A model generated the notes under the pieces. That model saw only the letters and a list, made by a program, of their open reading frames with translations. It was not told the origin of the DNA and searched no databases. A DNA stretch of 44,984 nucleotides, taken from assembly GCA_040752355.1 (NCBI GenBank), contig JBFMHE010000027.1, positions 1-44,984 on the forward strand. The letters are read 5' to 3'. Within the stretch, counting starts at the first letter, position 1; each line of letters begins with the position of its first letter. Made by a program: the position numbers and the translations under genes. This DNA is from Nitrospirota bacterium. Lineage in GTDB: Bacteria; Nitrospirota; Thermodesulfovibrionia; Thermodesulfovibrionales; Dissulfurispiraceae. Below are positions 7,358-40,039 of the stretch, one piece after another.

Positions 7358-7921
7358 ATGAAACGATCACTAATGCTCACCCTTATGCTGCTCTGCCTTC
7401 TTGTTTCGGCTGCGTGGCCGGCGCCGGTTACGATCACGGTGGGAAGCGACCCGCTCTGGACCGACACCGGGATCGTCGCCAGGCCCAATGATGCAGTCGC
7501 CATCGATCATATCTCGGGCGGCTGGACCTGGGCGGACTGGAACGAAGACGCCCCGCTCTCCGGCCCCCGGGGGAGTGCGCAGCCGGGGCTGACCTGGGAT
7601 GAATGGATCCGGAACGGGCAGCACGGCCAGCTCATAGGGTACATCGGGACAGACGACCCGAACGCCTTCCCGCGCACCGTGAAGCAGGACAGCAGCGGGC
7701 TGTTCGTGGTGGGTGACGGCGTCGAGTTCCTCAACAGGCTCACCGGAAAGGTATGGCTCGGGTTCAACGACGACTACTCGAACGACGCCTGGGTCGACGA
7801 CAACAGCGGGTCGGTGGTGGTCTCCCTCGACATCACCCCTGTTCCCGAGCCCTCGACGCTGCTCTTGTTCGGAGCAGGCCTCGCCGGTATCGGCCTCGCA
7901 TTGCGCCGATTCAGAAAATAG
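7358..7921 (+). CDS. PEP-CTERM sorted protein with LecA-like lectin domain
   Basis: A 187-residue exported protein: a signal peptide (about 1-22), one beta-rich domain, then a C-terminal PEP-CTERM tail (VPEPSTLLLFGAGLAG, a hydrophobic helix and basic RRFRK). That tail is cut by an exosortase as the protein is passed to the surface or exopolysaccharide. The middle resembles PA-IL/LecA galactose lectins. It begins WTDTGIV, has a GPRG element, and near the end shows WLGFNDD followed by DDNSGSVVVSLD. In LecA the equivalent YND...NNSGSF loop binds calcium and sugar. The resemblance is by eye. GGGAGG lies 11 bases before the ATG, a little far. No exosortase gene is in the window. The gene converges on hgcB with 32 bases between stops. 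Confidence 0.8.
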   Translation: MKRSLMLTLMLLCLLVSAAWPAPVTITVGSDPLWTDTGIVARPNDAVAIDHISGGWTWADWNEDAPLSGPRGSAQPGLTWDEWIRNGQHGQLIGYIGTDDPNAFPRTVKQDSSGLFVVGDGVEFLNRLTGKVWLGFNDDYSNDAWVDDNSGSVVVSLDITPVPEPSTLLLFGAGLAGIGLALRRFRK

Positions 7922-7953: not shown

Positions 7954-8256
7954 TCAGCAGCAACTGCCGCCCTTGGTATCGCTGCTGCCGCTGCAGCCGC
8001 AGGAAGGCTCGCCGCCGGTGATGATGCTGTTGATGAGGGCAGCGGCGCAGCCTACCCCTTTTTGCACGCGCAGCGCACCGGACGGGCAGTTGCTCACACA
8101 GGCGCCGCATTCCATGCACCGGTCCCGGTCGGTGACGACCGCTCGTTTATCGCGAATAACGAAGACCGCGTGCGGGCAGACCTCGGTGCACCTGCCGCAT
8201 CCCGTACAATGTTCGGGAGACAGTTCGAGGCTTGCGACATCCAGAAGGTATTTCAT
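7954..8256 (-). CDS. hgcB: HgcB, ferredoxin of the mercury-methylation pair
   Basis: About 100 residues with two [4Fe-4S] motifs, CTGCGRCTEVCP and CMECGACVSNCP. These are followed by an isolated Cys (KGVGCAAA) and a C-terminal vicinal pair (GGSCC). That set of features separates HgcB from ordinary 2[4Fe-4S] ferredoxins. HgcB is thought to reduce the HgcA corrinoid to Co(I) and to handle Hg(II) with its extra cysteines. I chose the ATG at 8256: it forms an ATGA overlap with the hgcA stop and has GGAGG five bases upstream. The frame also has an ATG four codons earlier, but that ATG is part of the ribosome binding site. Last gene of the apparent arsR-acr3-hgcAB operon. Confidence 0.93.
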   Translation of the reverse strand: MKYLLDVASLELSPEHCTGCGRCTEVCPHAVFVIRDKRAVVTDRDRCMECGACVSNCPSGALRVQKGVGCAAALINSIITGGEPSCGCSGSSDTKGGSCC

Positions 8257-9392
8257 AGTATCCTCCATTGATCGAGCTTGAATACGAGCAGGAGAACGAA
8301 CGAGACGATCGAAAAAACTATGTAGAGCGGCAGCGCGACCTTCAGCTCCTTCCTGACCCCCGACATGCCGGTGAAGGTGGTCGAGCCCGTGAACTGGAGC
8401 GCGATGTAGGAGCCGGCGAGAGGGAAGAAGAGGTATGCGGCGGCCAGCAGTATGCGGTCCATCTGATGGAACGCATCGAAGAGGTTTGCGTTCACGGAAA
8501 GGAAGACGGTGACCACTCCCGCGATCCAGCCTTTGGCGGCGAATGACCTGAAAGGGATATACGGGAGGAGGAGCGGGGTGAAAAAAGCGCCGGCTGCAAC
8601 TGCCAGCACGCCGAGCAGCAGGAAGGGCAGCCCGCCTGCCAGGGCATCGCTGAAGAGGATGCCGGACGGCCGGAGTCCGAAGAGAACGAGGATGAGCAGG
8701 GCGAACCAGGGGAACTTCTTCATCGCGGGAATGACTTCCATCGGGGTGAGGACCAGCCTGTCCAGGAAGGTGAAGCGGACCGTACGCATTTCTGGCGAGG
8801 CCTTACAGCCGGCCTCGAGATAGGCGGGGATGTCCTTCGCATCGACAGGTCCGTAAAGGACCCTGAATCCCGATCTCTTGCTCACCGCATGCGCGCTGAT
8901 CCCCGGCGCCCCGAGCTGCGGCACGATGACTCTCTTATGCCCGACGACCCTTTCGAGCCCCGTAACCGCAATGCGTCGTATCAGCTCCTCTGTCCCGAAC
9001 GTGCCCTTTCCGGCGGCACACCACACGTTGATGCCTCTCGTGTCGAGGACGAGGATCCAGGCATTCGATCCCTTCACTGCGCGGCGGAGCATGTCGAAGC
9101 TGAGCTTGTAATTGGCGCTTGCGAGGACTTCCGAGCTGTTATCCGGCGTGCCGATTGCGTAGAGGCCCGGATCGATTGTATAGTCGTTCCTGTAGGCGCT
9201 GGTCCTGCATTTCACCTCCCCCCAATAATCCGTCCGCGACCACTCGCCCGATATCCGCGGAACGGGCCCCGCCGGGGTCGTCAGCGTACCGATCATCCAT
9301 TCCGGTTTCTTCTTTTGCGCTCCGGTGCAGCACGATGTCGACCCAGCGCCACGATCCTCTTTCTTTGTAAGCTGCAGCTTTATATCAGTCAT
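8253..9392 (-). CDS. hgcA: HgcA, corrinoid protein of mercury methylation
   Basis: A 379-residue protein with the strictly diagnostic cap-helix motif NVWCAAGK at residues 122-129 (DNA 9006-9029), whose Cys125 would be the lower ligand of cobalt. The N-terminal half is the corrinoid domain shared with the CdhD/AcsC corrinoid iron-sulfur protein. The C-terminal part (about 225-375) has five hydrophobic helices, as in known HgcA. HgcA transfers a methyl carbanion from methyl-cob(III)alamin to Hg(II), giving methylmercury. It is longer than the roughly 340 residues of Pseudodesulfovibrio HgcA. The extra length is an N-terminal extension with a Cys pair (STSCC, residues 21-22). It starts 22 bases after the metallophosphoesterase gene and overlaps hgcB by ATGA, which suggests cotranscription and coupled translation. 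Confidence 0.95.
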   Translation of the reverse strand: MTDIKLQLTKKEDRGAGSTSCCTGAQKKKPEWMIGTLTTPAGPVPRISGEWSRTDYWGEVKCRTSAYRNDYTIDPGLYAIGTPDNSSEVLASANYKLSFDMLRRAVKGSNAWILVLDTRGINVWCAAGKGTFGTEELIRRIAVTGLERVVGHKRVIVPQLGAPGISAHAVSKRSGFRVLYGPVDAKDIPAYLEAGCKASPEMRTVRFTFLDRLVLTPMEVIPAMKKFPWFALLILVLFGLRPSGILFSDALAGGLPFLLLGVLAVAAGAFFTPLLLPYIPFRSFAAKGWIAGVVTVFLSVNANLFDAFHQMDRILLAAAYLFFPLAGSYIALQFTGSTTFTGMSGVRKELKVALPLYIVFSIVSFVLLLVFKLDQWRIL

Positions 9393-9414: not shown

Positions 9415-10137
9415 TTATCTCCCTTGCCTTAGCCTCTCCGCAAAATAGGGAGGCAAGCCTCGTTCTATAATTGCTGAAGCGGTCTTTTCGACATCATAGG
9501 GGACTCTTACAAATTCACTTTTTACCGTATCCTGATCCTGTGCTATCTCGACCATGGTGATGCAGGTCCTCGGGTCGCCGTCCTTCGGCTTCCCGACGCT
9601 TCCGGCATTTATGAAGACCTTGCCCCCGATATCTTTCCGGTACGGTTTATGGGTATGCCCGTAAATGAGGATGTCGGCATCCGCCTTCTCCGCCATCTCC
9701 TCGAAGAACTTTTCCGGCCGCTCTTCATACCAGTAGAGATTGTTTTTCTTCGGGGTTGCATGGAAAATGATTACCTTTTTGCTGCCGACCGTTAAGGATA
9801 TTTCAAACGGCAGCGTTCTCATGTACTCTTTGCTTTCTGGAGATGCGTGCTTTTTTGTCCATTCGAAGCCCAAAGACGACACTTCGGCCTGAACCGGATC
9901 TTCGTATGCGCATCCGCAATGCTCCCGGTCGTTTCCCACCGTTTCGTCATAGTTGCCCTGCACGCCGCTGATCTCGTGCTCGATGAGGAAGTCCACTGCC
10001 TCGTTTACGAAGGGTGCATATCCCCCGAGGTCGCCGAGATGATATATCCTCTCGGCGCCGCGGGCAACGGCCTCCTTATAGGCGGCCTTTAGCGCCTCCA
10101 GGTTTCCGTGGATATCTCCCATAATCCCGATCCTCAT
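9415..10137 (-). CDS. YfcE-like calcineurin superfamily phosphodiesterase in the ars-hgc operon
   Basis: About 240 residues with a complete small metallophosphoesterase set: GDIHGN at the N-terminus, GDLGGY, GNYD, a His in IIFHATP, and GHTHKPY near residue 170. These bind two divalent metals. Relatives (MJ0936, YfcE) hydrolyse phosphodiesters in vitro and physiological substrates are mostly unknown. I chose the ATG at 10137 because GGAGGGACA sits directly upstream and the protein then begins at the first beta strand (MRIGIMGDIHGN). The frame is open 12 codons further upstream, without support. The gene lies between acr3 and hgcA with short gaps (68 and 22 bases), so it is probably on the same transcript. 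Why it is there is unknown. Confidence 0.85.
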   Translation of the reverse strand: MRIGIMGDIHGNLEALKAAYKEAVARGAERIYHLGDLGGYAPFVNEAVDFLIEHEISGVQGNYDETVGNDREHCGCAYEDPVQAEVSSLGFEWTKKHASPESKEYMRTLPFEISLTVGSKKVIIFHATPKKNNLYWYEERPEKFFEEMAEKADADILIYGHTHKPYRKDIGGKVFINAGSVGKPKDGDPRTCITMVEIAQDQDTVKSEFVRVPYDVEKTASAIIERGLPPYFAERLRQGR

Positions 10138-10205
10138 TGTCCCTCCGGCCCGCTCCCGCGAGCTGCCGTGCACGCCTGTTTCCGCTCGTCATCCATAGGT
10201 GCAGT

Positions 10206-11285
10206 TCAGAGAGGGGCCGTATCCTTTACTCTGCAATAGTCCACCGTGAAGTACCGTTTCTGGAAATACTTCGCTACAGTGACGAGCCCTATCAGGACCG
10301 GCACCTCGACCAGCGGACCTATGACCGCAGCAAAGGCCGCCCCTGAATTGATGCCGAACACCGCTATGGCCACCGCAATGGCGAGCTCGAAGTTATTGCT
10401 CGCCGCCGTGAACGAGAGCGTCGCGGTCTTCTCGTAACCGGTCCCGATCCTATGTCCCATGTAAAACGAGGCCAGGAACATGACCACGAAATAGACGAGC
10501 AACGGAACGGCGATGCGGACGACATCAAGGGGAAGTCTCACGATGTAATTGCCCTTCAGGGAGAACATGACGACGATCGTAAAGAGCAGCGAGATGAGAG
10601 TAACCGGGCTTATTTTCGGGATGAACACCTGCTCGTACCACTGCCGTCCTTTCGTCTTCAGCAGCATAAAGCGGGTGAGCATGCCGGCGATAAAGGGAAT
10701 GCCCAAATAGATGAAGACGCTCTCGGCGATCTGGCCGATGGTCACCTCGACGACTGCTCCTTCGAGCCCGAACCAGGTCGGGAGGACCGTGATAAAGACA
10801 TAGGCATATACGGAAAAGAAGAGCACCTGGAACAGGGAATTGAAGGCGACCAGGCCCGCAGCGTACTCCGGGTCGCCGCAGGCGAGGTCGTTCCATACAA
10901 TGACCATGGCGATGCAGCGGGCCAGGCCGATCATGATGAGCCCGACCATGTACTCCGGATAGGAGCTGAGAAAGACGATCGCAAGGACGAACATCAATAT
11001 GGGACCTATTATCCAGTTCTGGATAAGTGAGAGGCCGAGGACTTTTTTATTCCTGAATACCTCGCCGAGCTCCTCGTATTTGACCTTCGCGAGCGGCGGA
11101 TACATCATCAGGATAAGCCCGACGGCAATGGGTATGTTGGTGGCGCCTACCTGAAAGCGGTTTATGAATTCTTCTGTTCCGGGAATGAAATACCCCACGC
11201 CGACGCCGAGGGCCATTGCCGCAAATATCCAGACGGTCAGATAACGGTCTATAAAGGAAAGCCTTCTCCCCACGGTATCAGCCAT
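10206..11285 (-). CDS. acr3: ACR3-type arsenite efflux permease
   Basis: A 359-residue, strongly hydrophobic protein with about ten predicted membrane helices. It matches the ACR3 family of the bile/arsenite/riboflavin transporter superfamily. Visible family features are [15 protein letters not shown] near the first helices, the essential Cys in GLARCIAMV on the fourth helix, and a conserved Glu near [15 protein letters not shown]. It exports arsenite (and possibly antimonite) from the cytoplasm by exchange with protons, with no ATPase partner needed. No arsA or arsC is seen, so the cell would depend on ArrA or an arsC elsewhere for arsenate reduction. It lies 27 bases downstream of arsR. Confidence 0.95.
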
Positions 11286-11312: not shown

Positions 11313-11693
11313 TCAGCCTCTCCCGCAGCATGCGGTTTTCCTCTTTATAGGGACGACTGTTCCCTTTGCGTCTTTGCCCTTGAGGAATGCTTCGAGTCTC
11401 TTTTTGTCCTCACGAACATCATTGTCCGAAATTCTCTCAATCACCGAAAGGACCAGGAACCGTTTGAACAGGTCTGAGTCGTCGATGCTGTAGTGAATCC
11501 ATTTGCCCTGCTTGCGGTCCCTGATCAGCCCCGCCTCCTTCAGGATTTTGAGGTGGAACGATATCTTGGGCTGAATCGTATCGATTGCGGCGACAATATC
11601 GCAGACGCAGAGCTCGCCGTGCTCGAGCAGCTTCACGATCCTGAGCCGCGTCTCGTCGGAGAGGGCTTTAAAAATGTCCGTTAAGTCCTGCAC
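11313..11693 (-). CDS. arsR: ArsR/SmtB family arsenic-responsive repressor
   Basis: A 126-residue winged-helix protein. The N-terminal half carries the ArsR signature: FKALSDETRLRIVKLL, then ELCVCDIV, then the recognition helix QPKISFHLKILKEAGLI. The CVC pair in ELCVCDIV is the thiolate As(III)/Sb(III) site of ArsR proteins. Binding there releases operator DNA. An unusual extra Cys pair (ACCGRG) lies at the C-terminus and may be a third ligand source. The start is GTG; AGGAG is present but 14 bases away. It is the first gene of an apparent five-gene operon ending with hgcAB, and a consensus promoter and palindrome lie about 40-90 bases upstream of it. Confidence 0.93.
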   Translation of the reverse strand: MQDLTDIFKALSDETRLRIVKLLEHGELCVCDIVAAIDTIQPKISFHLKILKEAGLIRDRKQGKWIHYSIDDSDLFKRFLVLSVIERISDNDVREDKKRLEAFLKGKDAKGTVVPIKRKTACCGRG

Positions 11694-11729: not shown

Positions 11730-11751
11730 TACATAAAAACTTTTTTATATA
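11730..11751. promoter_or_regulatory. Candidate ArsR operator
   Basis: A 22-bp AT-rich inverted repeat with ten-base arms (TACATAAAAA, two-base centre, TTTTTATATA) and one mismatch. It overlaps the last base of the -10 box and covers the expected transcription start of the ars-hgc promoter, the usual position for an ArsR repressor. Assignment to ArsR is inference from position. Confidence 0.65.
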
Positions 11752-11779
11752 ATATAACCGGAGCGGACGGTATTGTCAA
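11751..11779 (-). promoter_or_regulatory. Sigma-70 promoter of the arsR-acr3-hgcAB operon
   Basis: On the minus strand TTGACA (11779-11774) and TATATT (11756-11751) are separated by exactly 17 bases: a full consensus -35 and a five-of-six -10. The start would be near 11744, about 50 bases before the arsR GTG. No other good promoter is seen in the short gaps of the operon. The rest of the 358-base gap to the next gene holds a small GCGGC/GCCGC hairpin (11903-11917) and the sigma-54-like element listed separately. Confidence 0.8.
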
Positions 11780-28211: not shown

Positions 28212-29594
28212 TTAGCGAACGAAAATGAGCTGCAGATCCATGACATTGGTGCCGGTCGGCCCGGTGATGAGCAGCTCCCCGGTCGTCTTGAAGAACGTAT
28301 AGGAATTGTTGTTCCCGAGGAAGGTCCCGGCGTCGAGCCCTGCGGACAGCCCCCTCGACACGGTGGCGCCGTCGACGACCGCTCCGGCAGCATCGGTCGG
28401 GCCGTCGGTGCCGTCCGTCCCGGCCGAAAGGAGCGTAATGCCCTCGACGCCCGCGACCTCGATGGCAAAGGCGAGGGCGAGCTCCGTGTTCCTGCCGCCG
28501 CGGCCGCTGCCGGTGACGGTCACCGTTGTTTCGCCGCCCGAGATCAGGCAGAGCGGACAGTCCGCGCCGCTGCGGCGCAGGGACGCCTGCGCTTCCCGCG
28601 CTGCTCTCGCGAGCCGGCGGCCCGCCTCCCGCGCCTCGCCCGAGAGCTCCGAAGAGAGGAGGGCGGTCTCGAGGGAGAGCGCGGCGGCTTTTTCCGCGAC
28701 GGCGTCGAGGGCTTTTTTATTGCTGCCGATGACGATATTCTCGACGCGCCCGAACAGGGGATTTCCCGCTTTCGGTGTTTCGGGCCAGATCCCCGACACC
28801 CCGCGGTAGATGATCTCGAGCGCCACCTGCGGCGACCGCTCCATGAGCATGTATTTGTCCAGCACCGCGAGGGCATCCTGGTAGATCGTGGGGTCGGGAG
28901 CGGTCGGACCCGAGGCGATGACATCGAGCTTGTCGCCGATGACGTCGGAGAGGATGAGGGTTACGACCCGGGCCGGCGCAGCGAGCTCGGCGAGACGGCC
29001 GCCCTTTACGCGCGAGAGATGCTTCCTGACGGTATTGAGCTCGTCGATGGTTGCGCCGGCCTTGAGCAGCAGGTCGGTGACCGCCTGTTTCTCGGCGAGC
29101 CCCATTCCGTCGTAGGGCGCGACGCAGAGCGCCGAGCCGCCGCCCGAGATGAGGCAGAGGACGAGCGTCCTTTCATCGGCCCGCTGGAGCAGGGAGATGA
29201 TCTCCTCGGCGCCGCGGACGCCGTTTTCGTCCGGGACCGGGTGGCCCGCCTCGAAGACCCGGATCCCCCCTGGCCCGATCCCCCCTGGCCCGATCCCCCC
29301 TGGCCCGATCCCCCCTGGCCCGATCCCCCCTGGTATGAACGGGGCGAGGCAGTGGCCGTACTTGGTGATGACCACGCCGTCGGTGATGAGGCCGGGGAGC
29401 ATATCCTCGACAGCCTTTGCCATGGGACAGGACGCCTTGCCGAAACCGATCACCACCAGCCGCTCGAACCCGCCGCCGTTGTATGCAGCGCGCAGGGTCG
29501 CTTCGTACCGGCGCACCGCCTCGTACGGATCGACCGCATGCAGCGCTGCATGGAAGAGATCGGCAAGGATGTCCCGCGGCGGGCGATGGGTCAT
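28212..29594 (-). CDS. Glycerate 2-kinase (GckA/TtuD type, DUF4147-MOFRL)
   Basis: A 460-residue protein. The N-terminal DUF4147 domain has GFGKASCPMAKA, EAGHPVPDENG and the nucleotide/glycerate loop SGGGSALC. The C-terminal MOFRL domain has ISGGETTVTV, GRGGRNTELALA and SAGTDGTDGPTDAAGA. It phosphorylates D-glycerate to 2-phosphoglycerate using ATP. It is odd in one respect: the loop just before RVFEAGHP holds five tandem GPGGI-like pentapeptides encoded by a 15-bp minisatellite. No ribosome binding site precedes the ATG, and a TATAAT box ends only six bases before it, so the transcript may be leaderless. Glycerate is also the acceptor unit of glucosylglycerate, possibly made by the neighbouring glycosyltransferases. 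Confidence 0.9.
   Translation of the reverse strand: MTHRPPRDILADLFHAALHAVDPYEAVRRYEATLRAAYNGGGFERLVVIGFGKASCPMAKAVEDMLPGLITDGVVITKYGHCLAPFIPGGIGPGGIGPGGIGPGGIGPGGIRVFEAGHPVPDENGVRGAEEIISLLQRADERTLVLCLISGGGSALCVAPYDGMGLAEKQAVTDLLLKAGATIDELNTVRKHLSRVKGGRLAELAAPARVVTLILSDVIGDKLDVIASGPTAPDPTIYQDALAVLDKYMLMERSPQVALEIIYRGVSGIWPETPKAGNPLFGRVENIVIGSNKKALDAVAEKAAALSLETALLSSELSGEAREAGRRLARAAREAQASLRRSGADCPLCLISGGETTVTVTGSGRGGRNTELALAFAIEVAGVEGITLLSAGTDGTDGPTDAAGAVVDGATVSRGLSAGLDAGTFLGNNNSYTFFKTTGELLITGPTGTNVMDLQLIFVR
29262..29333. repeat. 15-bp minisatellite inside the glycerate kinase gene
   Basis: Four perfect head-to-tail copies of GATCCCCCCTGGCCC (29262-29321) and a fifth partial copy of 12 bases. 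The unit length is a multiple of three, so copy-number change adds or removes one GPGGI pentapeptide without shifting the frame. All copies are identical, which implies recent expansion. Confidence 0.97.
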
Positions 29595-29600
29595 GACTCA

Positions 29601-29606
29601 ATTATA
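29601..29606 (-). promoter_or_regulatory. -10 box of the glycerate kinase gene, leaderless arrangement
   Basis: A perfect TATAAT on the minus strand lies six bases before the ATG. Initiation at the usual distance falls on or next to the start codon. No convincing -35 is seen at 16-18 bases, and no Shine-Dalgarno sequence is present. Confidence 0.55.
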
Positions 29607-29638
29607 CACGCAACGGCGCCGCACATGACAGGAGCCAA

Positions 29639-29666
29639 TTGCACTATTTCATCGTTTTGCTATACT
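29639..29666 (+). promoter_or_regulatory. Promoter of the radical SAM gene, leaderless arrangement
   Basis: TTGCAC and TATACT with a 16-base spacer; the -10 ends six bases before the ATG and there is no ribosome binding site. It is back to back with the glycerate kinase promoter in a 78-base gap. Confidence 0.6.
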
Positions 29667-29672
29667 TTTAAT

Positions 29673-31076
29673 ATGTCTATCGAGACGGTCTCTTTTCTCG
29701 AGGTCAAACCTCCGGGACTCCATATATTCAGCAAATTTCCCATTCCGCGGCTCGGCGCTGTCCTGCTGGCGACACTCCTGCGCAACGAGGGGTACACGGT
29801 GAAGGTATTCGTCGAGGACATCGCGGAACCGGACTGGGCCTTCATTCACCGCTCCGACCTCGTCTGCATATCGACGATCACCTCTACCGCCCCGCGTGCA
29901 TACCGCATCGCCGACAGCATACGGGAGCGGGGCATCCCGGTTGTCATGGGAGGGCCGCATCCCTCGTTCATGCAGGAGGAGGCGCTCCGGCACGCCGACT
30001 GCGTGGTGCGGGGCGAGGGCGATGAAACGCTCCCGGAGCTGCTCGCGTTCTTCGAGAACGGTACGCCCGCGCTCGACGCCATTCACGGCATAGCATACAA
30101 GGACGCTTCGGGGAGGGTGGTGGAGACGCCGCCGCGCCCCCTGCTCGCGGATTTGAACAGCCTGCCCGCGCCCGACCTCTCGCTCATCCATGGATGGAAG
30201 CCCACGCATATCTACCCGCTGTCGACGTCGCGGGGATGCCCTTTCAGCTGTACCTTCTGCTCGGTGATACAGATGTTCGGCAGGAAATACCGGTTCAGGT
30301 CCATCGAGAAGACACTGGAGGATATCCGCGGCGCGGTGGAGCGGAGCAGGGCGACCCTCTTTTTCGTGGACGATAACTTCGCCGCCCACAGACCGAGGGC
30401 AAAGGCGATACTGAAGGGAATGATCGCGGGGGGGCTGCGTCATGACTGGTCGGCGCAGGTGCGCACCGATGTCGCAAAGGATCACGAGCTCCTGCGCCTG
30501 ATGGCCGACTCGGGATGCCACACCCTCTATATCGGGTTCGAGTCGGTCAACCCCCGGACGCTCGCCCTTTACGACAAGCGGCAGACCCTCGATGAGATCG
30601 TGTCCTGCATAAAGGCGGTCAGGTCGCACGGTATCGCCATCCATGGCATGTTCGTGCTCGGCGCGGATACGGACACGGCGGAGACGATCGGGCATACGGT
30701 ACAGTTCGCCGTCGATCTCGGGATCGATACGGTGCAGTTCATGCCGCTCACCCCCGTGCCCGGGACGCCGGTTTTCGAGGAGATGGCGCGGACCGGCAGG
30801 CTCCTGCATACCGACTGGAGCAAGTACGATATGCATCATGTCGTCTTCCTCCCCGCGCAGATGCGGCCCGAAACGCTCCAGATAGAGTCGTTGCGGGCCA
30901 TGGAGCGGTTCTATTCATGGGGCTATATCCTGCGGCGCCTGGCCCGCCTGGACCTCCACTATACGATTCTGGGGCTTTACGGCAATCGCGCGGTGAAGCG
31001 CGCGATGGAGGCGGCCCGGTCGTATATCGAGCATCTCCGGACCGTTCCCCCGCCGCTCACGGCGTGCAGCGAGTAA
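29673..31076 (+). CDS. B12-binding-type radical SAM protein
   Basis: A 467-residue protein: an N-terminal Rossmann-like cobalamin-binding-type domain (about 1-140) with GGPHPSF and VVRGEGDETLPELL. It is followed by a radical SAM core with the cluster motif CPFSCTFC at about residue 190. The later elements RATLFFVDDNF, IGFESVNPRTL and FMPLTPVPGTPVFE are typical of the BchE/HpnJ-like class. The canonical DxHxxG cobalamin motif is not seen, so B12 binding is uncertain. Substrate cannot be predicted; relatives methylate or cyclise unactivated carbons in lipids, cofactors and natural products. The frame is open 218 codons upstream across the kinase gene, but the ATG at 29673 is set by the promoter and by domain alignment. 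The gene starts the long plus-strand series through 40818. Confidence 0.87.
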   Translation: MSIETVSFLEVKPPGLHIFSKFPIPRLGAVLLATLLRNEGYTVKVFVEDIAEPDWAFIHRSDLVCISTITSTAPRAYRIADSIRERGIPVVMGGPHPSFMQEEALRHADCVVRGEGDETLPELLAFFENGTPALDAIHGIAYKDASGRVVETPPRPLLADLNSLPAPDLSLIHGWKPTHIYPLSTSRGCPFSCTFCSVIQMFGRKYRFRSIEKTLEDIRGAVERSRATLFFVDDNFAAHRPRAKAILKGMIAGGLRHDWSAQVRTDVAKDHELLRLMADSGCHTLYIGFESVNPRTLALYDKRQTLDEIVSCIKAVRSHGIAIHGMFVLGADTDTAETIGHTVQFAVDLGIDTVQFMPLTPVPGTPVFEEMARTGRLLHTDWSKYDMHHVVFLPAQMRPETLQIESLRAMERFYSWGYILRRLARLDLHYTILGLYGNRAVKRAMEAARSYIEHLRTVPPPLTACSE

Positions 31077-31118
31077 TTGACCGGCACTGCAACATGCTCT
31101 TCGCACGAGGAGAGGGCC

Positions 31119-32366
31119 ATGACGGATTTCTACCAGACGGGCGTCGTCGCCACCTTCCACCGGCTCGGTGCGGTCGCTCTCGAGCGCATCGAATCGGAGC
31201 TGGCGTGGCATTGCCGGGAACGGCCGATCGCCCTGGTGCTGCCTTCTCTCTACAGCGAGCTGCAGGGAGAGGCGCTCAAGGGGATACTCAGGGAGCTCCC
31301 CTCGGCCGGCTACATCAAGGAGATCATCGTCACTCTCGGGCCGGCAACGGAGGAGGAGTTCACCCATGCGCAGCAGTTCTTCTCCGATCTTCCCCAGAAG
31401 ACGCGGATCATCTGGAACACGGGACCGAGGATCGATGCGGTCTACAAGGCGATAGAGTCCGAGGGGCTGCCTACGGGAGAGCACGGCAAAGGACGCTCGG
31501 TATGGATGGCCTGCGGCTACGTGCTTTCGCAGCAGGAGTTCCATGCCGTCGCCTTCCACGACTGCGACATTCTTACCTATGACCGGAACCTGCTCGCCCG
31601 CCTCTGTTACCCGGTGGTCAATCCCAACCTCGATTACGATTTCTGCAAAGGATATTACAGCAGGGTTACGGACCGGATGCACGGCAGGATGACACGGCTT
31701 CTCGTGACCCCGCTCGTACGCTCCCTCCAGAAGATCTTCGGCCACCATCCCCTCCTCGTCTTTTTCGACAGCTTCCGCTATCCCCTCGCCGGGGAGTTCT
31801 CCATGGACAGCAACCTGGCGCGGGTCAGCAAATTCCCCGGGGACTGGGGGCTCGAAATGGGCGTGCTCGCCGAGGTCTACCGGAATACCTCGATCCGGAG
31901 GGTCTGCCAGGCCGATCTCGCGGAGAACTACGAGCACAAGCACCAGAAGCTCTCGCCCGAGGACGAGACGCAGGGACTCCACAAGATGGCGGTCGATATC
32001 TGCAAATCCGTCTTCAGGACGCTCGCCGCAGAGGGGCTCGTCTTCTCCGAGGGACTGTTCAAGACCCTGCTCGCCACCTACGCCACGACAGCGCAGGACA
32101 TGCTCAAGCGCTATGAAGACGACGCCGCGATAAACGGGCTGTTCTTCGACCGGCACCAGGAGAGCCTCGCGGTGGAGACCTTTACCAAGGGGATAAAGAA
32201 AGCGGCGAGGATCATCATGGATGACCCTCTCGGCGTTCCGCTCATTTCGAGCTGGGACAGGGTGACTGCGGCCATCCCCGATATCCTCTACCGGCTCAAG
32301 CGGGCGGTAGAGGAGGATAATGCGGCCGTCGCACTTGCTACAGAACAGCTTGCCTCCAGGAGGTAG
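31119..32366 (+). CDS. GT81-like glycosyltransferase (glucosyl-3-phosphoglycerate synthase type)
   Basis: A 415-residue GT-A enzyme. The metal/nucleotide motif is DCD in AFHDCDILTYDR, preceded by GKGRSVWMACGY. A long acceptor region (FCKGYYSRV, RMTRLL, PLAGEFSMD, WGLEMGVLAEVY) follows the pattern of GpgS, which transfers glucose from a nucleotide sugar to 3-phosphoglycerate in glucosylglycerate synthesis. No dedicated phosphatase is seen beside it. GAGGAGAGGG precedes the ATG; the frame continues 14 codons upstream without support. The stop codon is overlapped by the ribosome binding site of the next gene, so translation is probably coupled. The exact acceptor is uncertain. Confidence 0.75.
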   Translation: MTDFYQTGVVATFHRLGAVALERIESELAWHCRERPIALVLPSLYSELQGEALKGILRELPSAGYIKEIIVTLGPATEEEFTHAQQFFSDLPQKTRIIWNTGPRIDAVYKAIESEGLPTGEHGKGRSVWMACGYVLSQQEFHAVAFHDCDILTYDRNLLARLCYPVVNPNLDYDFCKGYYSRVTDRMHGRMTRLLVTPLVRSLQKIFGHHPLLVFFDSFRYPLAGEFSMDSNLARVSKFPGDWGLEMGVLAEVYRNTSIRRVCQADLAENYEHKHQKLSPEDETQGLHKMAVDICKSVFRTLAAEGLVFSEGLFKTLLATYATTAQDMLKRYEDDAAINGLFFDRHQESLAVETFTKGIKKAARIIMDDPLGVPLISSWDRVTAAIPDILYRLKRAVEEDNAAVALATEQLASRR

Positions 32367-32369
32367 GGC

Positions 32370-33062
32370 ATGGAGACCGCAACCAAACCCTTCGAGTTCA
32401 GGCAGTGCATTACCATCCTGAAAGCAACCGGGAGGAAGGCGAAGAACCTCCGGGAGCTGCGGGACGTACTCGCCGTGATCAACACCGAATCCATATTCCA
32501 TCACGTGTACCAGTATTTCCTGAAAGGCCACATCCTCGAATATACGAACGACTTCGCCCAGTGGGCGGGGATAGTCCTGGAAGAGCGGGCGCTCTCGGAG
32601 CAGCTCTCGAATATCGACCCGTTCGCCTTCGACACCACCGATGCGCTCCGTCATGAACTGGTGGAGGTCGTCGATCGCTATCTCCGTACGTTCCCGGACC
32701 CCGGCGACGTGCTGCCGGGAGAGGAGTTTTTCTTCAACCAGACCGTCACCCTCATCTTCCCGTCAGATATACGGGCGAAGAACCTCGCCGAGTTCCTCAT
32801 CGCCATGCGCTACATCGACGGCAGCTCCATCTACTACCACTTCTACGAGGCGAGGACGCGTCTCGGCAGCAGGATGGACGACTTCGCGAAGTGGTTCGAG
32901 GAGGTCCTGGGCAAGCAGGAACTCGCGCAGCGGCTGCGCTCCGTCGACCTCTTCATGCACTCCATCGAGGGGATACGGGAGCACATCATCGAGGCGGTCG
33001 AGGAAGAGGTCAGGAGAGGCATGTACGGAGCGCTGAAGGAGACCCCTGCGCTTGCCCGGTAA
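32370..33062 (+). CDS. DUF5752-like protein with internal duplication
   Basis: A 230-residue soluble, helix-rich protein made of two related halves (about 8-108 and 122-220). Each has the pattern F-x-Q-T/C-x-T-L/I, then AKNL-x-E, then SI-x-HH/YH-F/VY, then a DFA-x-W motif. In the first half these are KAKNLREL, SIFHHVY and DFAQW; in the second RAKNLAEF, SIYYHFY and DFAKW. Conserved His and acidic residues in both copies suggest a ligand or metal site, but no activity is known to me. The start has AGGAGG six bases upstream, and this overlaps the preceding stop codon. It sits between two sugar-osmolyte glycosyltransferases and probably serves the same pathway. Confidence 0.75.
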   Translation: METATKPFEFRQCITILKATGRKAKNLRELRDVLAVINTESIFHHVYQYFLKGHILEYTNDFAQWAGIVLEERALSEQLSNIDPFAFDTTDALRHELVEVVDRYLRTFPDPGDVLPGEEFFFNQTVTLIFPSDIRAKNLAEFLIAMRYIDGSSIYYHFYEARTRLGSRMDDFAKWFEEVLGKQELAQRLRSVDLFMHSIEGIREHIIEAVEEEVRRGMYGALKETPALAR

Positions 33063-33098
33063 GCGCGGGATAGGGGGCACGACAAAGGAGGGATTACC

Positions 33099-34310
33099 AT
33101 GCTTGACCAGTATGCCGGCATAGCGCCCAAGGCTGACCTGATGCTCCTCGAGCAGCTCGGGGAGGAGCTGCAGGGCAGGTCGTTCCTGCATGTCAACTCG
33201 ACCCGCGCCGGCGGCGGCGTCGCCGAGATACTGCAGCGGATGCTCCCGATCCTCACTGCCATCGGCATCGACGCCCGCTGGGAGGTGATCGAGGGCGACG
33301 CGAGCTTCTTCGATATGACCAAGAAGATGCATAACGCCCTTCAGGGCACCCCCGAGACGATAACGGGGACCATGTGGGAGCACTACGCCGATGTCAACAG
33401 GAGGAACGCGGAACGGCTCGACCTCGACGCCGATGCCGTCATCATCCACGATCCGCAACCGGCGGCATTCATCGATTTCAAGCGGGAGGGGTGGTGGATC
33501 TGGCGGTGCCATATCGATGTGTCGAACCCGGTGCGCGAGGTTGTGGACGGCATCGTCCGCTACGCGCGGCGGTACGACGCCGCGGTCTTTTCGGTCGCGC
33601 GGTTCGCATGGGCGATGGGCACCGATGAGTTCATCATTCCGCCGTCCATCGACCCTCTCAGCGATAAGAACAGGGAGATGGACGCCACCGAGATCCGCCT
33701 GGTCCTCGACCGGCTCGGGATACCCACGGACCGTCCGATCGTCCTGCAGGTCTCCCGCTTCGACAGGTTCAAGGACCCGATCGGCGTGATTCAGGCCTAC
33801 CGCATGGTCAAGAAATACAACGACTGCATCCTCGTCCTCGCCGGCAGCCCCGCCACGGACGACCCCGAAGGAGAGGTGGTGCTCAACGAGGTGAGGGAGT
33901 ATGCTGCGGACGACCCGGACATTTATATCCTGCTCCTGCCTCCCTTCAGCGACCTCGATATCAACGCGCTGCAGCGCAGCGCCACCGTCATCCTCCAGAA
34001 GTCGCTCAAGGAGGGGTTCGGCCTGACGGTCTCGGAAGCGATGTGGAAGGGGAAGCCGATCATCGGCGGCGCGGTGGGCGGCATTCCGCTCCAGATCGTC
34101 CACGGCGTCACCGGGTTCCTCGTCCATTCGGTCGAAGGCGCCGCTTTCCGGATACGGCAGTTCCTGAACAACCCGGCAATGGCGCGGCGCATGGGCGAGC
34201 GGAGCAGGGAGTATGTGCGCGAGAATTTCCTCATAACGCGCCAGACACGGGACTATCTTTCGGTGTGGTATACGCTCGAAGCGGGAAGAAAGACGGTCAT
34301 CGAGGTCTGA
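33099..34310 (+). CDS. treT: Trehalose glycosyltransferring synthase (TreT-type GT4)
   Basis: A 403-residue GT-B retaining glycosyltransferase. The N-terminal domain opens with LHVNSTRAGGGVAEIL and has FFDMTKKMHNALQG and IIHDPQPA. The C-terminal nucleotide-sugar domain has QVSRFDRFKDP and the E-x7-E motif in EGFGLTVSEAMW. These are TreT features. TreT makes trehalose reversibly from glucose and ADP- or UDP-glucose. GlgC, encoded 3 kb downstream, would provide ADP-glucose. AAAGGAGGG precedes the ATG. Trehalose phosphorylase and other GT4 synthases are related, but the N-terminal motifs favour TreT. Confidence 0.88.
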   Translation: MLDQYAGIAPKADLMLLEQLGEELQGRSFLHVNSTRAGGGVAEILQRMLPILTAIGIDARWEVIEGDASFFDMTKKMHNALQGTPETITGTMWEHYADVNRRNAERLDLDADAVIIHDPQPAAFIDFKREGWWIWRCHIDVSNPVREVVDGIVRYARRYDAAVFSVARFAWAMGTDEFIIPPSIDPLSDKNREMDATEIRLVLDRLGIPTDRPIVLQVSRFDRFKDPIGVIQAYRMVKKYNDCILVLAGSPATDDPEGEVVLNEVREYAADDPDIYILLLPPFSDLDINALQRSATVILQKSLKEGFGLTVSEAMWKGKPIIGGAVGGIPLQIVHGVTGFLVHSVEGAAFRIRQFLNNPAMARRMGERSREYVRENFLITRQTRDYLSVWYTLEAGRKTVIEV

Positions 34311-34344
34311 CATCCGCGCGTTTCCGTCTCATCATACGGGAGGG

Positions 34345-37300
34345 ATGACTATCGCTACGCCGGATCCGTACGAAACGAGAATACCCGTCTCAACCTATCG
34401 GCTCCAGTTCAACTATCAATTCACGTTCGCCGACGCGCGGAAGATCGTCGGGTACCTCTACGACCTCGGCATCAGCGATATCTACGCCTCTCCTTACTTC
34501 AAAGCGAAGAAGGGGAGCCTCCACGGCTACGATATCGTCGATCCCAATACGCTGAATCCCGAGATCGGCACCGGGGAGGAGTACGACGAGCTCGTCCGGG
34601 CCCTGCAGGAGCGCGGGATGGGCCAACTCCTCGACATCGTTCCCAATCACATGTGCGTCACCGGCGAGGAGAACGCATGGTGGATGGATATCCTCGAGAA
34701 CGGCCCGAGCTCGCGCTATGCGGAGTTCTACGATATCGACTGGAACCCCGTAAAAAAGGAGCTTTACCGCAAGGTCCTCCTGCCCTTCCTGGGAGATCAG
34801 TACGGGAGGGTCCTCGAACGGCAGGAGCTGCTGCTCCATTTCGACCACGGCGCCTTCTTCGTCACCTACTACGAAAACAAGTTTCCGCTCAACACCAGGA
34901 CCTGTCTCTTCATTATCAGTTATCGCCTCGACGACCTGAAGCAGCGGCTCGCGGAGGACGACGAAGACCTCATCGAGCTCCTCAGCATCGCGACCGCCCT
35001 GCAGCACCTCCCCTCGTACGACGAGAAGAGCGACGAGAAGGTGGACGAGCTCTACCGGGAGAAAGAGATCGTCAAGAAGCGGCTCTGGACTCTCTACTCC
35101 CGGAGCGAAGCGATCCGGCGCTTCATCGATGAGACGGTCCGGCTCTTCAACGGACAGAAGGGCGACCCGTCGAGCTTCGACCCGCTTCACGCGCTGCTCG
35201 AACAGCAGCCGTACCGCCTTACCCATTGGCGCGTGGCGACCGACGAGATCAACTACCGCCGCTTTTTCGACATCAACCAGATCGCCGGGGTGAGAATGGA
35301 GAGCATCCGGGTGTTCAACGAGACCCACCGGCTCACCCTCGCGCTCGTGGGGAGCGGGAAGGTGACGGGGCTCCGCGTCGATCACCCCGACGGGCTCTAT
35401 AACCCTTCGGAATATTTCCGCTGGCTCCAGAAAGGCTGCTTCATAAATATGAGGGGCGCGCTGCTGGGAGACCCGAAAGCTCCGCTCCCGCTCTCGCTCG
35501 ATAATCACGAGGCCGGCCCCGCGAACGAGCCCCTGCGCCGCTACGAGGAGATCCTGCGCGAGCGCCCCGATTACAAGCCGTTCTACATCGTCGGAGAGAA
35601 GATCCTGACCAAGGGAGAGCGCATGCCCGAGGACTGGCCGATCTTCAGCACCACGGGATATGTCTTCATGAACTCGCTCAACGGCATCTTCGTCGCGACC
35701 GAGCACGCGCGGGATTTCGATCTCCTGTATGAGCGGTTCATCAAGGAACGGAAATCGTTTCCCGATATCGTCTACGAAAAGAAGAAACTGATCATGCAGG
35801 TCGCGATGTCGAGCGAGGTGAACACGCTCGGCTATCGCCTCAACTCCCTTGCGGAAAGCGACCGCCACACCAGGGATTTCACCCTCAACAGCCTCATCGG
35901 CGCCATCGTGGAGGTGATCGCGTTCTTTCCCGTTTACCGGACCTATACGAACACCTGCGAGGTGAACGAAACGGACCGGCGGTACATCGAGATCGCGGCA
36001 GCCAAGGCGAAGCGGAAGAACCGTGCGATCAGCGAATACATCTACGATTTTCTCAGGGATGTCCTCCTGCTCAGGTTTCCCGAAGACTTCACCGAGCAGC
36101 AGAAGCAGGAATGGCTCTACTTCGTCACGAAGTTCCAGCAGCTGACCGGCCCGGTCATGGCGAAGGGGCTCGAGGATACGTCGTTCTATGTCTACAATCG
36201 CCTCGTCTCCCTTAACGAGGTGGGCGGCAGCCCGGACCGCTTCGGGATCCCCCTCGAGACCTTTCACGGTCAGAACCTGGAGCGTATCAAGTACTGGCCC
36301 CATGCGCTGATCGCGTCGTCGACGCACGACGCGAAGCGGAGCGAGGACGTGCGGGCGCGCATCAACGTGCTTTCGGAGATCCCCGCCGAGTGGCGGGCAG
36401 CGCTCGTGAGGTGGAAGCGCTTCAACAGAAAGAGGAAGCCCGTCGCCGAGGGCAGACCGGTACCGGACCCCAACGATGAGTACCTGTATTACCAGACCCT
36501 CGTCGGGGCCTGGCCCTTCGGCACGCTGGATGAGGCCGGCTACGGGGCGTTCACGGCGCGCATCAAGGAATACATGCTCAAGGCGGTGCGGGAGGGAAAG
36601 GTCAATTCGAGCTGGATCAACATGAACGGACCCTACGAGGACGCCCTGATGACGTTCGTCGACGCCACGATGGACAATGCCCCGGACAACGAATTCAGGA
36701 GGGATATCGAGGCGTTCCAGAAGGTGATTGCCGCATACGGCATATTCAACTCCCTTTCACAGACCGTGCTGAAGATAACCTCCCCCGGCGTGCCCGATTT
36801 CTATCAGGGCACCGAGCTCTGGGCCCTCAGCCTCGTCGACCCCGACAACCGCCGGCCGGTCGACTACGGGGTGCGGGCGCGCATGCTCGCGGAGCTGAAA
36901 GCGAGAGAGGAGGAGGATATCCCCGGGCTGCTCGGGGAGTTGCTCGCTTCTGTCGAGGACGGGCGGGTGAAGCTCTTCGTCACCCGCAAGGCGCTCACCT
37001 ACCGGCGGGACCGGAGTGACCTCTTCGCACGGGGTGAGTATGTCGCCCTCCATGCCGTAGGGGAGAGGGCGGACCACCTCTGCGCCTTTGCCCGACGGCT
37101 CGAGACGCTGACCGCCCTTACCATAGTCCCGCGCTTTGTCACCCGGCTGGCGGCCCCCGGGAAAGGCCCGCCCCTCGGCGAGAGGGTGTGGGGGGAGACC
37201 GCGGTCGTGCTCCCCTTCGACAAGGGGGAGACGCCGTACCGGAACCTGTTCACCGGCGAGATCGTGCGCGCCCGCGAGCACAACGGCGCCGCAGCGCTGC

Positions 37301-37356
37301 TCCTGCGCGACGTGCTCGCACATTTCCCTGTGGCCCTCCTGGAAAGGAGTGTATAA
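34345..37356 (+). CDS. treY: Maltooligosyltrehalose synthase
   Basis: A 1003-residue GH13 enzyme, at the long end for the family. N-terminal STYRLQFNYQFTF and DIYASPYFKAKKGSLHGYD are TreY hallmarks. Further conserved regions are LDIVPNHM, the nucleophile Asp in GLRVDHPDGLYNP, the acid/base Glu in IVGEKILTKGE, and STHDAKRSEDVRAR. It converts the reducing end of glycogen-like glucans to a trehalose unit. The partner hydrolase TreZ is not encoded in the window. The start ATG follows GGGAGGG with almost no spacer, an unusual arrangement, but no better start is seen. It lies 34 bases after treT. Confidence 0.93.
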   Translation: MTIATPDPYETRIPVSTYRLQFNYQFTFADARKIVGYLYDLGISDIYASPYFKAKKGSLHGYDIVDPNTLNPEIGTGEEYDELVRALQERGMGQLLDIVPNHMCVTGEENAWWMDILENGPSSRYAEFYDIDWNPVKKELYRKVLLPFLGDQYGRVLERQELLLHFDHGAFFVTYYENKFPLNTRTCLFIISYRLDDLKQRLAEDDEDLIELLSIATALQHLPSYDEKSDEKVDELYREKEIVKKRLWTLYSRSEAIRRFIDETVRLFNGQKGDPSSFDPLHALLEQQPYRLTHWRVATDEINYRRFFDINQIAGVRMESIRVFNETHRLTLALVGSGKVTGLRVDHPDGLYNPSEYFRWLQKGCFINMRGALLGDPKAPLPLSLDNHEAGPANEPLRRYEEILRERPDYKPFYIVGEKILTKGERMPEDWPIFSTTGYVFMNSLNGIFVATEHARDFDLLYERFIKERKSFPDIVYEKKKLIMQVAMSSEVNTLGYRLNSLAESDRHTRDFTLNSLIGAIVEVIAFFPVYRTYTNTCEVNETDRRYIEIAAAKAKRKNRAISEYIYDFLRDVLLLRFPEDFTEQQKQEWLYFVTKFQQLTGPVMAKGLEDTSFYVYNRLVSLNEVGGSPDRFGIPLETFHGQNLERIKYWPHALIASSTHDAKRSEDVRARINVLSEIPAEWRAALVRWKRFNRKRKPVAEGRPVPDPNDEYLYYQTLVGAWPFGTLDEAGYGAFTARIKEYMLKAVREGKVNSSWINMNGPYEDALMTFVDATMDNAPDNEFRRDIEAFQKVIAAYGIFNSLSQTVLKITSPGVPDFYQGTELWALSLVDPDNRRPVDYGVRARMLAELKAREEEDIPGLLGELLASVEDGRVKLFVTRKALTYRRDRSDLFARGEYVALHAVGERADHLCAFARRLETLTALTIVPRFVTRLAAPGKGPPLGERVWGETAVVLPFDKGETPYRNLFTGEIVRAREHNGAAALLLRDVLAHFPVALLERSV

Positions 37357-37501
37357 TTTAAGTAACGCGCAGGGGAAACTCCGGGACATCCTGAACGTCA
37401 ATGCCTGAGAGCCCCTGATAAATTAAAGGTTTGGAGTTGAGCGAGCATACTGTGCCTCATCCGACTCCCTCTGCTCATTCCGTTAGACGCTCTTAACCCC
37501 C

Positions 37502-38740
37502 ATGGTGGATCATATGGCCCATCCGAAGATTCTCGCTTTTGTTCTGGCCGGCGGCAAGGGAGAGCGGCTCTTCCCGCTCACCGCCTTTCGCTCCAAGCCG
37601 TCGGTGCCGTTCGGCGGCCGCTATCGCATCGTCGATTTCGCCCTCAGCAATTTCATCAATTCCCATATCTATTCGCTCTACCTCCTCGTGCAGTACAAGT
37701 CGCAGTCGCTCATCGAGCATGTGCGGCAGAACTGGGTCCTGTCCTCGATCATCGGCAGCCACTTCGTCACCGTCGTTCCTCCGCAGATGCGGATGGGGCC
37801 CGAGTGGTTCCAGGGGACTGCGGATGCGGTCTTCCAGAACATCAACCTCATCCGCGAGCATAACCCGGAGCTGGTGGTCGTCTTCGGGGCGGACCATATC
37901 TACCGGATGGACATACGCCAGATGATCGACTTCCACCTCGCGAACGATGCGGTCGTCACCGTGGCGGCCCGGCCGGTGCCGCTCGATCAGGCCTCCTCCT
38001 TCGGCATCATCAAGGCGGACGCCGACCGCCGCATCACCGGCTTCGAGGAGAAGCCGAAGAAAGCGACCCCCATGCCCGGCGACCCCGGCAGGGCATACGC
38101 CTCGATGGGCAATTATATCTTCCGCACCGAGGTGCTGCTCGACTCGCTCGCCAAGGCGCAGCGAAAGAAGCAGCACGATTTCGGGGCTCACGTGATCCCC
38201 GGCCTCCTCGAGACAGGAAGGGTCTTCGCCTATGATTTCGCTACGAACACCATCCCCGGGACCATGCCCTACGAGGAGAAGGGCTACTGGCGCGATGTCG
38301 GGACCATCCCCGCCTTTTTCGACGCCCATATGGACATGCTGGGCGAGACGCCGACCTTCCAGCTCTACAACAGGCGCTGGCCGATTCACCCCATCATCCA
38401 CGAAGGGCCAGCATCGCGTATCCTCCGGGGCGATATACGGAACAGCGTCGTCGCGGAGGGGGTGATCATCCACAAGGCTAAGATACGCAACTCCGTCATC
38501 CGGAGCGGCGTCATCATCGAGAACAATGTCAGCATCGAGGACTGCATTATCATGGATGATGTGGTGCTCAAGGAAGGGTGCCGTCTGCACCGGGTCATTG
38601 TCGATAAGTTGAATGTCATCAAAGAGCACGAGCAAATCGGCTTCGACCGCGATAAAGACCGGTTCCATTGTCATATCGACCCCTCGGGCATCGCTGTCGT
38701 CCCCAAAGGCGGCCTGCTGATAAAGTCGCCGCGAAAGTAG
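37502..38740 (+). CDS. glgC: Glucose-1-phosphate adenylyltransferase
   Basis: A 412-residue nucleotidyltransferase. The N-terminal pyrophosphorylase domain has FVLAGGKGERLFPLT, the substrate loop GTADAVFQN, GADHIYRMD and GFEEKP. The C-terminal part is a left-handed beta-helix with hexapeptide-type repeats (NSVVAEGVII, NSVIRSGVII). It makes ADP-glucose and pyrophosphate from ATP and glucose 1-phosphate for glycogen, and here probably for TreT. Two starts are possible: ATG 37502 has a poor site; ATG 37514 has GGTGG five bases upstream. The 145-base gap before it holds a loose GGAGTTG/CGACTCC hairpin and no clear promoter. Confidence 0.93.
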   Translation: MVDHMAHPKILAFVLAGGKGERLFPLTAFRSKPSVPFGGRYRIVDFALSNFINSHIYSLYLLVQYKSQSLIEHVRQNWVLSSIIGSHFVTVVPPQMRMGPEWFQGTADAVFQNINLIREHNPELVVVFGADHIYRMDIRQMIDFHLANDAVVTVAARPVPLDQASSFGIIKADADRRITGFEEKPKKATPMPGDPGRAYASMGNYIFRTEVLLDSLAKAQRKKQHDFGAHVIPGLLETGRVFAYDFATNTIPGTMPYEEKGYWRDVGTIPAFFDAHMDMLGETPTFQLYNRRWPIHPIIHEGPASRILRGDIRNSVVAEGVIIHKAKIRNSVIRSGVIIENNVSIEDCIIMDDVVLKEGCRLHRVIVDKLNVIKEHEQIGFDRDKDRFHCHIDPSGIAVVPKGGLLIKSPRK

Positions 38741-38776
38741 CTCCTCCTGCACCATCATGCCGCACAGGAACGATCC

Positions 38777-40039
38777 ATGGCAGACAGCGCCTTACTGAGA
38801 AAGGAGATCAAGGAGCGGATACGGGAGATCGGCGAGGCGGAGATCGCCGTCGGCATCCCGAGCTACAATAACGCCCATACCATCGGACATGTGGTGCGGG
38901 CGGTGCAGGCGGGGCTGGCCAAGTACTTTCCGACGAGGAGGGCGGTGCTGATCAACTCGGACGGAGGCTCCACGGACGGGACCATGGAGATCGTCGAGGA
39001 GACGACGATCGAAGACCTCCAGTCCATTCTCCTGGCTCACCGCGTCGAACCGGTGCTGAAGATAGCAACCCCGTACCATGGAGTCCCCGGCAAAGGGAGC
39101 GCGTTCCGGACGATCTTCGAAATCGCGAGCGCGCTCAAGGTGAAGGCCTGTGCGGTCATGGACTCCGATCTGAGGAGCATCGCCCCCGAGTGGATCGAGC
39201 TCCTGCTCAAGCCGATGATCGAGGGAGAGTTCGACTACGTGGCTCCCCTCTACCACCGCCACAAGTACGACGGCACCATCACGAACAGCATCGTCTACCC
39301 TCTTACCAGCGCCCTCTACGGAAAACGGGTGCGGCAGCCCATCGGAGGGGATTTCGGCATGTCCGGCCGGCTCGTCGATTTCTATCTCTCCAAAGAGGTG
39401 TGGGAGAGCGATGTGGCGCGGTACGGTATCGACATCTGGATGACCACGACCGCCATCGCCAACGGGTTCCGGGTCTGCCAGTCCTTCCTGGGCGCAAAGA
39501 TACACGACCCGAAAGACCCCGGCGCCGATTTGAGCGCCATGCTCTACCAGGTGGTCGGCTCTGCCTTCGACCTCATGGAGACCTACGCTTCTGTCTGGTC
39601 CCGGGTGACCGGCTCGGAGCCGGTGCCGACCTTCGGGTTCCAGTATACGGTGGGGCTCGAACCCATTGCGGTCAATGTCGACCGGATGATCGACAAGTTC
39701 CGCCTCGGCGTCGAGGAGCTTGCGGGGGTATGGAGAGGGGTGCTCAGCGGGCGTATCATGCAGTTTCTCACGGAGGTCGACACCTCGTCCAGAGACCGGT
39801 TCCACATCCCCGATGAGCTCTGGGCGGATATCGTCTACAGTTTCGCCCTCGCCGAGCACCGCAATGTCATAAACAAGGGTCATCTGCTCAAGTCGCTCAC
39901 CCCCCTCTACATCGGGAGGACGGCATCCTTCGTGCTCGAGACGCTCGAGAGCGATGCACGGGCGGTAGAGGCGAAGATCGAGGCCCTGCGCGCAGTGTTC
40001 GAGCAGAAGAAAGAGGCGTTCGCGAGGGGGTGGGGCTGA
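38777..40039 (+). CDS. GT2/GT78-like glycosyltransferase (glucosyl- or mannosylglycerate synthase-like)
   Basis: A 420-residue GT-A enzyme. It has IAVGIPSYNNAHTIG at the N-terminus, a nucleotide-binding INSDGGSTDGT, GKGSAFRTIFEIA and the metal motif DSD in VMDSDLRSI. A helical C-terminal third of about 170 residues follows. The arrangement resembles mannosylglycerate/glucosylglycerate synthases, which glycosylate glycerate directly. The loop IGGDFGMSG is a likely acceptor site. Cluster context (TreT, TreY, GlgC, the GT81-like gene and a glycerate kinase) supports a compatible-solute role. It starts 36 bases after glgC with AGGA seven bases before the ATG. Sugar and acceptor are not certain. 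Confidence 0.72.
   Translation: MADSALLRKEIKERIREIGEAEIAVGIPSYNNAHTIGHVVRAVQAGLAKYFPTRRAVLINSDGGSTDGTMEIVEETTIEDLQSILLAHRVEPVLKIATPYHGVPGKGSAFRTIFEIASALKVKACAVMDSDLRSIAPEWIELLLKPMIEGEFDYVAPLYHRHKYDGTITNSIVYPLTSALYGKRVRQPIGGDFGMSGRLVDFYLSKEVWESDVARYGIDIWMTTTAIANGFRVCQSFLGAKIHDPKDPGADLSAMLYQVVGSAFDLMETYASVWSRVTGSEPVPTFGFQYTVGLEPIAVNVDRMIDKFRLGVEELAGVWRGVLSGRIMQFLTEVDTSSRDRFHIPDELWADIVYSFALAEHRNVINKGHLLKSLTPLYIGRTASFVLETLESDARAVEAKIEALRAVFEQKKEAFARGWG

Follow-up and report, generated by a model that had tools for sequence, protein, structure and literature searches.

We find, in an uncultured Nitrospirota bacterium, an apparently intact hgcAB gene pair that very probably makes up the final two genes of a jointly transcribed operon for arsenic resistance under the control of ArsR. 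Microbes produce methylmercury by means of hgcAB, the two known genes for its formation; here the pair lies within a window—the whole stretch of 44,984 nucleotides that was analysed—corresponding to one entire contig of a 3.57-Mb assembly, with a rated completeness of 100% and contamination of 0.38%. As a variant, the operon context is useful; the hgcAB pair itself is ordinary. The features on which this reading is built are collected in Table 1.

Table 1. Features of the operon and its upstream region, in window coordinates and in order of transcription (MPE, metallophosphoesterase).
Feature	Position	Strand	Basis
sigma-70-like promoter, TTGACA-17-TATATT	11751..11779	minus	upstream of arsR; 11/12 consensus matches; consensus match only
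imperfect inverted repeat, TATATAAAAAAGTTTTTATGTA	11730..11751	minus	adjoins -10 box; weak candidate ArsR operator
arsR, ArsR/SmtB-type repressor	11313..11693	minus	NF033788, 102 bits (cut-off 55)
acr3, arsenite efflux permease	10206..11285	minus	TIGR00832, 466.7 bits (cut-off 282.8)
MPE, YfcE-like, calcineurin-type	9415..10173	minus	TIGR00040, 74.9 bits; Metallophos_2, 98.9 bits
hgcA	8253..9392	minus	NCBIfam NF040863, motif, alignment, AF2 model, PDB matches
hgcB	7954..8256	minus	NCBIfam NF040864, Cys positions, ribosome-binding site

The hgcA reading frame encodes a protein of 379 amino acids and contains neither an internal stop codon nor a frameshift. Its match to the curated NCBI equivalog for HgcA reaches 402.1 bits against a cut-off of 275 (E = 1.7e-120) and that of its partner to the HgcB equivalog 121.9 bits against 99 (E = 7.5e-36); both far exceed chance expectation. 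The ‘cap-helix’ signature of HgcA, N(V/I)WCA(A/S)GK with the Cys serving as lower ligand, is seen as NVWCAAGK at residues 122–129, with the Cys at position 125; N122, V123, W124, C125, A126, G128 and K129 show no variation across 48 aligned relatives, and the pattern N-x-W-C-x-x-G is kept in all 122 distinct HgcA loci compared. Hydropathy analysis gives approximately five hydrophobic segments from residue 219 onward, in keeping with an AlphaFold2 model (mean pLDDT 88, pTM 0.82) that predicts a corrinoid domain and then, past residue 216, a membrane domain of five long helices (217–239, 247–274, 284–301, 313–332 and 343–375); the first 23 residues are of low confidence in this model. Compared against the PDB, the model most resembles the integrative HgcAB model 9a0b_A, which it matches over near its whole length (Z 19.8, 319 residues), followed by the large subunits of the corrinoid iron-sulfur protein (CFeSP) over ~125 residues, lower matches dropping to Z 6.7. 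The N-terminal extension of HgcA (residues 1–40; window 9273–9392) also carries a vicinal Cys pair, C21–C22, and a pair of this kind is present in the N-terminal extension of 65 of the 122 loci, their start positions being approximate.

For hgcB, the longest open reading frame begins at 8268, four codons ahead of a second Met (ATG, 8256–8254). The latter appears the best start, because a GGAGG lies just 5′ of it and because it creates an ATGA overlap of 4 nt with the hgcA stop codon. Numbered from this Met, HgcB is a protein of 100 amino acids, uninterrupted by stop codon or frameshift, with two CxxCxxCxxxCP motifs that supply the Cys residues for 4Fe-4S clusters (17/20/23/27 and 47/50/53/57), an isolated Cys (C70), two further Cys in the tail (C86 and C88) and a terminal pair (C99–C100); together with the adjacent hgcA, these are the features that define the HgcB class. 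The preliminary description of this DNA had picked out NVWCAAGK, the five-helix membrane domain, the Cys arrangement of the ferredoxin and a pair of genes with nothing broken, all of which hold; the ATGA overlap that it described is right if HgcB begins at the second Met. What stood was the identity and intactness of the pair, what it missed were the three co-oriented genes upstream and Cys21–Cys22 of HgcA.

As the corrinoid domain of HgcA is homologous to CFeSP, and as the only Pfam match is to CdhD (PF03599, 34 bits), we considered whether the window protein might instead be the gamma subunit of CFeSP (AcsC/CdhE) or another CdhD-family corrinoid protein, taking no part in mercury methylation. 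The chance of this is next to negligible: the CFeSP gamma model gives only 65.2 bits against a cut-off of 306, compared with 402 for the HgcA equivalog, and the likeness between the two proteins, ~27% identity over ~125 residues of a shared corrinoid-binding fold, does not extend to the cap Cys or the membrane domain, both found in the window protein and both lacking in CFeSP gamma. The genome moreover has an AcsC of its own, encoded by a distinct gene on a different contig, and where HgcA reads NVWCAAGK this protein reads SVLTGWAAGK. In a paralogue tree of HgcA, CFeSP gamma and fused HgcAB-like proteins of Nitrospirota (drawn up without named, experimentally confirmed methylators) CFeSP gamma splits off with full support, with the window protein positioned inside HgcA, in a starred clade of 13 rows, and apart from the fused HgcAB-like rows. 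Profile, motif and tree thus refute the CFeSP gamma identity; the grouping with CdhD/AcsC-type proteins lacking the cap Cys, which the preliminary description had named as the outcome that would overturn its assignment, is not what we see, and the profile searches and the tree with fused proteins and paralogues that it proposed as checks both came out in favour of HgcA. Somewhat less remote, yet still very improbable, is a fused or divergent HgcAB-like paralogue, a class for which mercury activity is unproven: such fused proteins do occur in the same order (L201, L202), and the HgcAB_like model awards the window HgcA 192.2 bits, but this lies below the cut-off of 285, hgcA and hgcB are two separate genes rather than one fusion, and the tree clusters the protein with HgcA, a set of results that disfavours the fused identity. 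The fused HgcAB-like proteins L201, L202 and L203, from other families of the order, have the cap motifs NVWCAAGG, NVWCAACG and NVWCGSAG, respectively. As judged from their sequences, HgcA and HgcB are a genuine and apparently intact pair.

Moving upstream from hgcA, the three further genes share its orientation, giving the order arsR-acr3-MPE-hgcA-hgcB. Spacing within the unit is tight (arsR–acr3, 27 nt; acr3–MPE, 32 nt; MPE–hgcA, 22 nt; then the overlap of hgcA with hgcB), from which we infer that all five genes are most likely co-transcribed. The encoded ArsR has an ELCVCD motif and a C-terminal Cys pair and is co-oriented with an ACR3 permease that scores above cut-off—the combination that characterises an arsR-acr3 operon—with acr3 being the single match in the whole genome. 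The inverted repeat beside the promoter is a weak candidate for the ArsR operator, because it is A/T-rich and not common to the arsR upstream regions of relatives; those with a promoter before arsR lack the same repeat. No match to HgcC (NF040962), the product of the gene usually found upstream of hgcAB, scored above cut-off anywhere in the genome and, with no HgcC encoded, this hgcAB may be regulated otherwise than its counterparts in most relatives. Scans of the window for tRNA genes and Rfam families gave no matches. Elsewhere in the window, a gene for a PEP-CTERM protein (7358–7921, plus strand) is convergent with hgcB, and a trehalose/glucosylglycerate-type solute cluster (29019–40039) includes a malto-oligosyltrehalose synthase, TreT-like and GpgS-like glycosyltransferases and a B12-binding radical SAM protein (29019–31076).

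No 16S rRNA gene was found in the MAG, and the host was therefore placed by rpoB, which identifies it as a member of the Nitrospirota: identity is 83% to the Nitrospirota MAG AS27yjCOA_151, 66–76% to most other Nitrospirota compared and 58–67% to the principal matching pieces from other phyla. Both the malto-oligosyltrehalose synthase and the metallophosphoesterase of the hgcAB contig have close matches in Nitrospirota, so its binning looks sound. HgcA above cut-off is encoded by 12 of the 31 genomes of the host's family and by 55 of the 396 sampled Nitrospirota genomes; with so many sampled carriers, and with Nitrospirae hgcA reported earlier (PMC7438021; PMC10349881), the range of the mercury-methylation trait is not extended, contrary to what the preliminary description had suggested for a host outside the best-known methylators, and the pair is ordinary for the phylum. 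The window HgcA shares only 53% identity with its counterpart in the genome nearest by rpoB (L024; rpoB 83%), but in the HgcA tree it sits in a 22-row clade of its own order (support 93/92). Given this placement we do not claim that hgcAB entered the host by horizontal transfer, which accounts for the data no better than differential loss or older HgcA lineages do. One genome (G360) has two hgcA copies (L141, L147), on separate contigs, with nearly identical core proteins. With the Nitrospirota hgcAB described earlier from metagenomes and MAGs (PMC7438021, PMC10349881) the locus has its phylum and broad HgcA lineage in common; what sets it apart is the ars cassette, most of the Nitrospirota loci that we sampled having instead HgcC or no recognised regulator upstream.

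The arrangement recurs. The identical order arsR-acr3-MPE-hgcA-hgcB is present in G226 (family f9), acr3-MPE-hgcA-hgcB in G461 (family f12) and arsR-acr3-hgcA-hgcB, with no MPE between, in G376 (family f9); a second family of the order thus keeps the five-gene unit, and a third keeps acr3-MPE-hgcAB. The HgcA sequences of G226, G376 and G461 group together in a single clade (99/100), with the window HgcA nearby in the same 22-row clade. Eight further loci of the order have acr3 (and arsR, where the stretch reaches) followed by MPE, with no hgcAB in the stretch read, and one more has a rearranged acr3/MPE version, hgcAB being likewise absent from the stretch read. The YfcE-like MPE partners acr3/arsR independently of hgcAB at L172, L175, L177, L178, L179, L189, L190, L194 and L195. 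Of the 122 hgcA loci, 14 have an ArsR gene on the same strand no more than 2.6 kb upstream and 28 have HgcC there, but none has both (hypergeometric probability of no overlap 0.02, relatedness of the loci being ignored); because of this, the ars cassette at our locus seems to stand in for HgcC. That hgcAB can lie beside acr3 or arsR is already published (PMC7438021), and the loci in Fig. 6 of McDaniel et al. 2020 are similar in that hgcAB is flanked by acr3, arsC, arsM or arsR; they differ from the complete, co-oriented five-gene unit described here, with its YfcE-like phosphoesterase and its conservation in a second family. In the literature searched we came across no account of this precise unit, no paper connecting hgcAB with ArsP and none on HgcC by that name. 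At two other loci (L101:5027–7000 and L148:11528–13137) hgcAB or arsR is accompanied by an ArsE-type thioredoxin and by a SaoE-like permease that scores below cut-off, the permease adjoining hgcAB in L101 and lying near it in L148. Such permeases occur near 10 of the 122 hgcAB loci and are a lead for organometal export; as a methylmercury exporter the permease is a lead only, and its gene is absent from the arsR-acr3-MPE-hgcAB operon.

What does the arsenic context mean for hgcAB? It might be a chance neighbourhood, hgcAB having come to lie 3′ of an ars cassette from which transcription simply reads through into it, with no functional link between the two. Many relatives carry the cassette with no hgcAB adjacent to it; the G+C content of hgcAB is 0.607 against 0.53–0.55 for the ars genes; and the recurrence may be one event, in that a single assembly for the window, G226 and G461 was not rejected (AU p 0.44 for HgcA, 0.476 for MPE); for the group linked to ars, the trees neither establish nor reject a single origin. 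Against this, three families retain the arrangement even though their sequences have diverged, and Spirochaetota and Bacillota show ars-hgcAB links of other layouts; on balance we regard mere proximity as unlikely. Alternatively, this could be a genuine HgcAB with another native job, such as a step in the handling of arsenic or soft metals, mercury methylation being a side activity. This would agree with the placement of hgcAB in an operon with the genome's only acr3, an arrangement repeated in other families, and with the ArsR regulation of hgcAB published for ND132, as cited in PMC10349881, yet most sampled Nitrospirota hgcAB loci have no ars gene nearby, and the invariant HgcA residues are identical in those ars-free loci; we consider it improbable.

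Returning to our reading of hgcAB as an ArsR-controlled pair, the best-studied point of comparison is HgcAB of Pseudodesulfovibrio mercurii (Desulfovibrio desulfuricans) ND132, for which essential-residue data are available (PMC7305189). HgcA of both organisms has the cap-helix Cys motif and the corrinoid and five-helix membrane domains, and HgcB of both is a dicluster ferredoxin with an isolated Cys and a terminal Cys pair; in both, the genes are adjacent and associated with an ArsR-type regulator. The hosts belong to different phyla, however, and acr3 and the metallophosphoesterase lie between arsR and hgcA here; the N-terminal HgcA extension with its Cys pair is a further difference. By analogy with studied homologues, the methyl group of methyltetrahydrofolate would pass to the corrinoid of HgcA, held from below by Cys125; the 4Fe-4S clusters of HgcB would reduce the cobalt; the terminal Cys pair and Cys70 of HgcB would hand on Hg(II) or CH3Hg+; and methylmercury would then exit the cell. 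Another contig (C7) carries a carbonyl-branch Wood-Ljungdahl cluster with the genes for AcsA, AcsB, AcsC, AcsD and an AcsE-type methyltransferase, which amounts to CODH, ACS, the two subunits of CFeSP and a protein of the methyltetrahydrofolate:corrinoid methyltransferase type; the host thus plausibly has both methyltetrahydrofolate and a donor methyltransferase at its disposal. ArsR would be freed by As(III), or by a comparable metal that binds thiols, and the arsenite pump and HgcAB would then be co-expressed, a step suggested by the gene order and by the published ArsR–hgcAB case in Pseudodesulfovibrio. From the intact pair it is fair to infer that the host probably methylates mercury; the presence of hgcAB genes need not imply activity.

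The gene pair adds one Nitrospirota carrier to the many already known. The conserved arsenic-operon context is the more useful point, as it makes the question of what hgcAB natively does, and how it is regulated, accessible to test through one prediction: arsenite should induce hgcAB in this lineage. Taken to its full extent—HgcAB as a functional part of an arsenite-responsive arsR-acr3-MPE-hgcAB operon, arsenic as the trigger for methylmercury production, and a native role that may cover thiol-binding metals and metalloids beyond mercury—the idea is speculative, and we judge it unlikely as a whole. Which organisms carry hgcAB, and what triggers it, decide where toxic methylmercury forms; if the idea is true, arsenic exposure would turn on methylmercury production in this Nitrospirota lineage.
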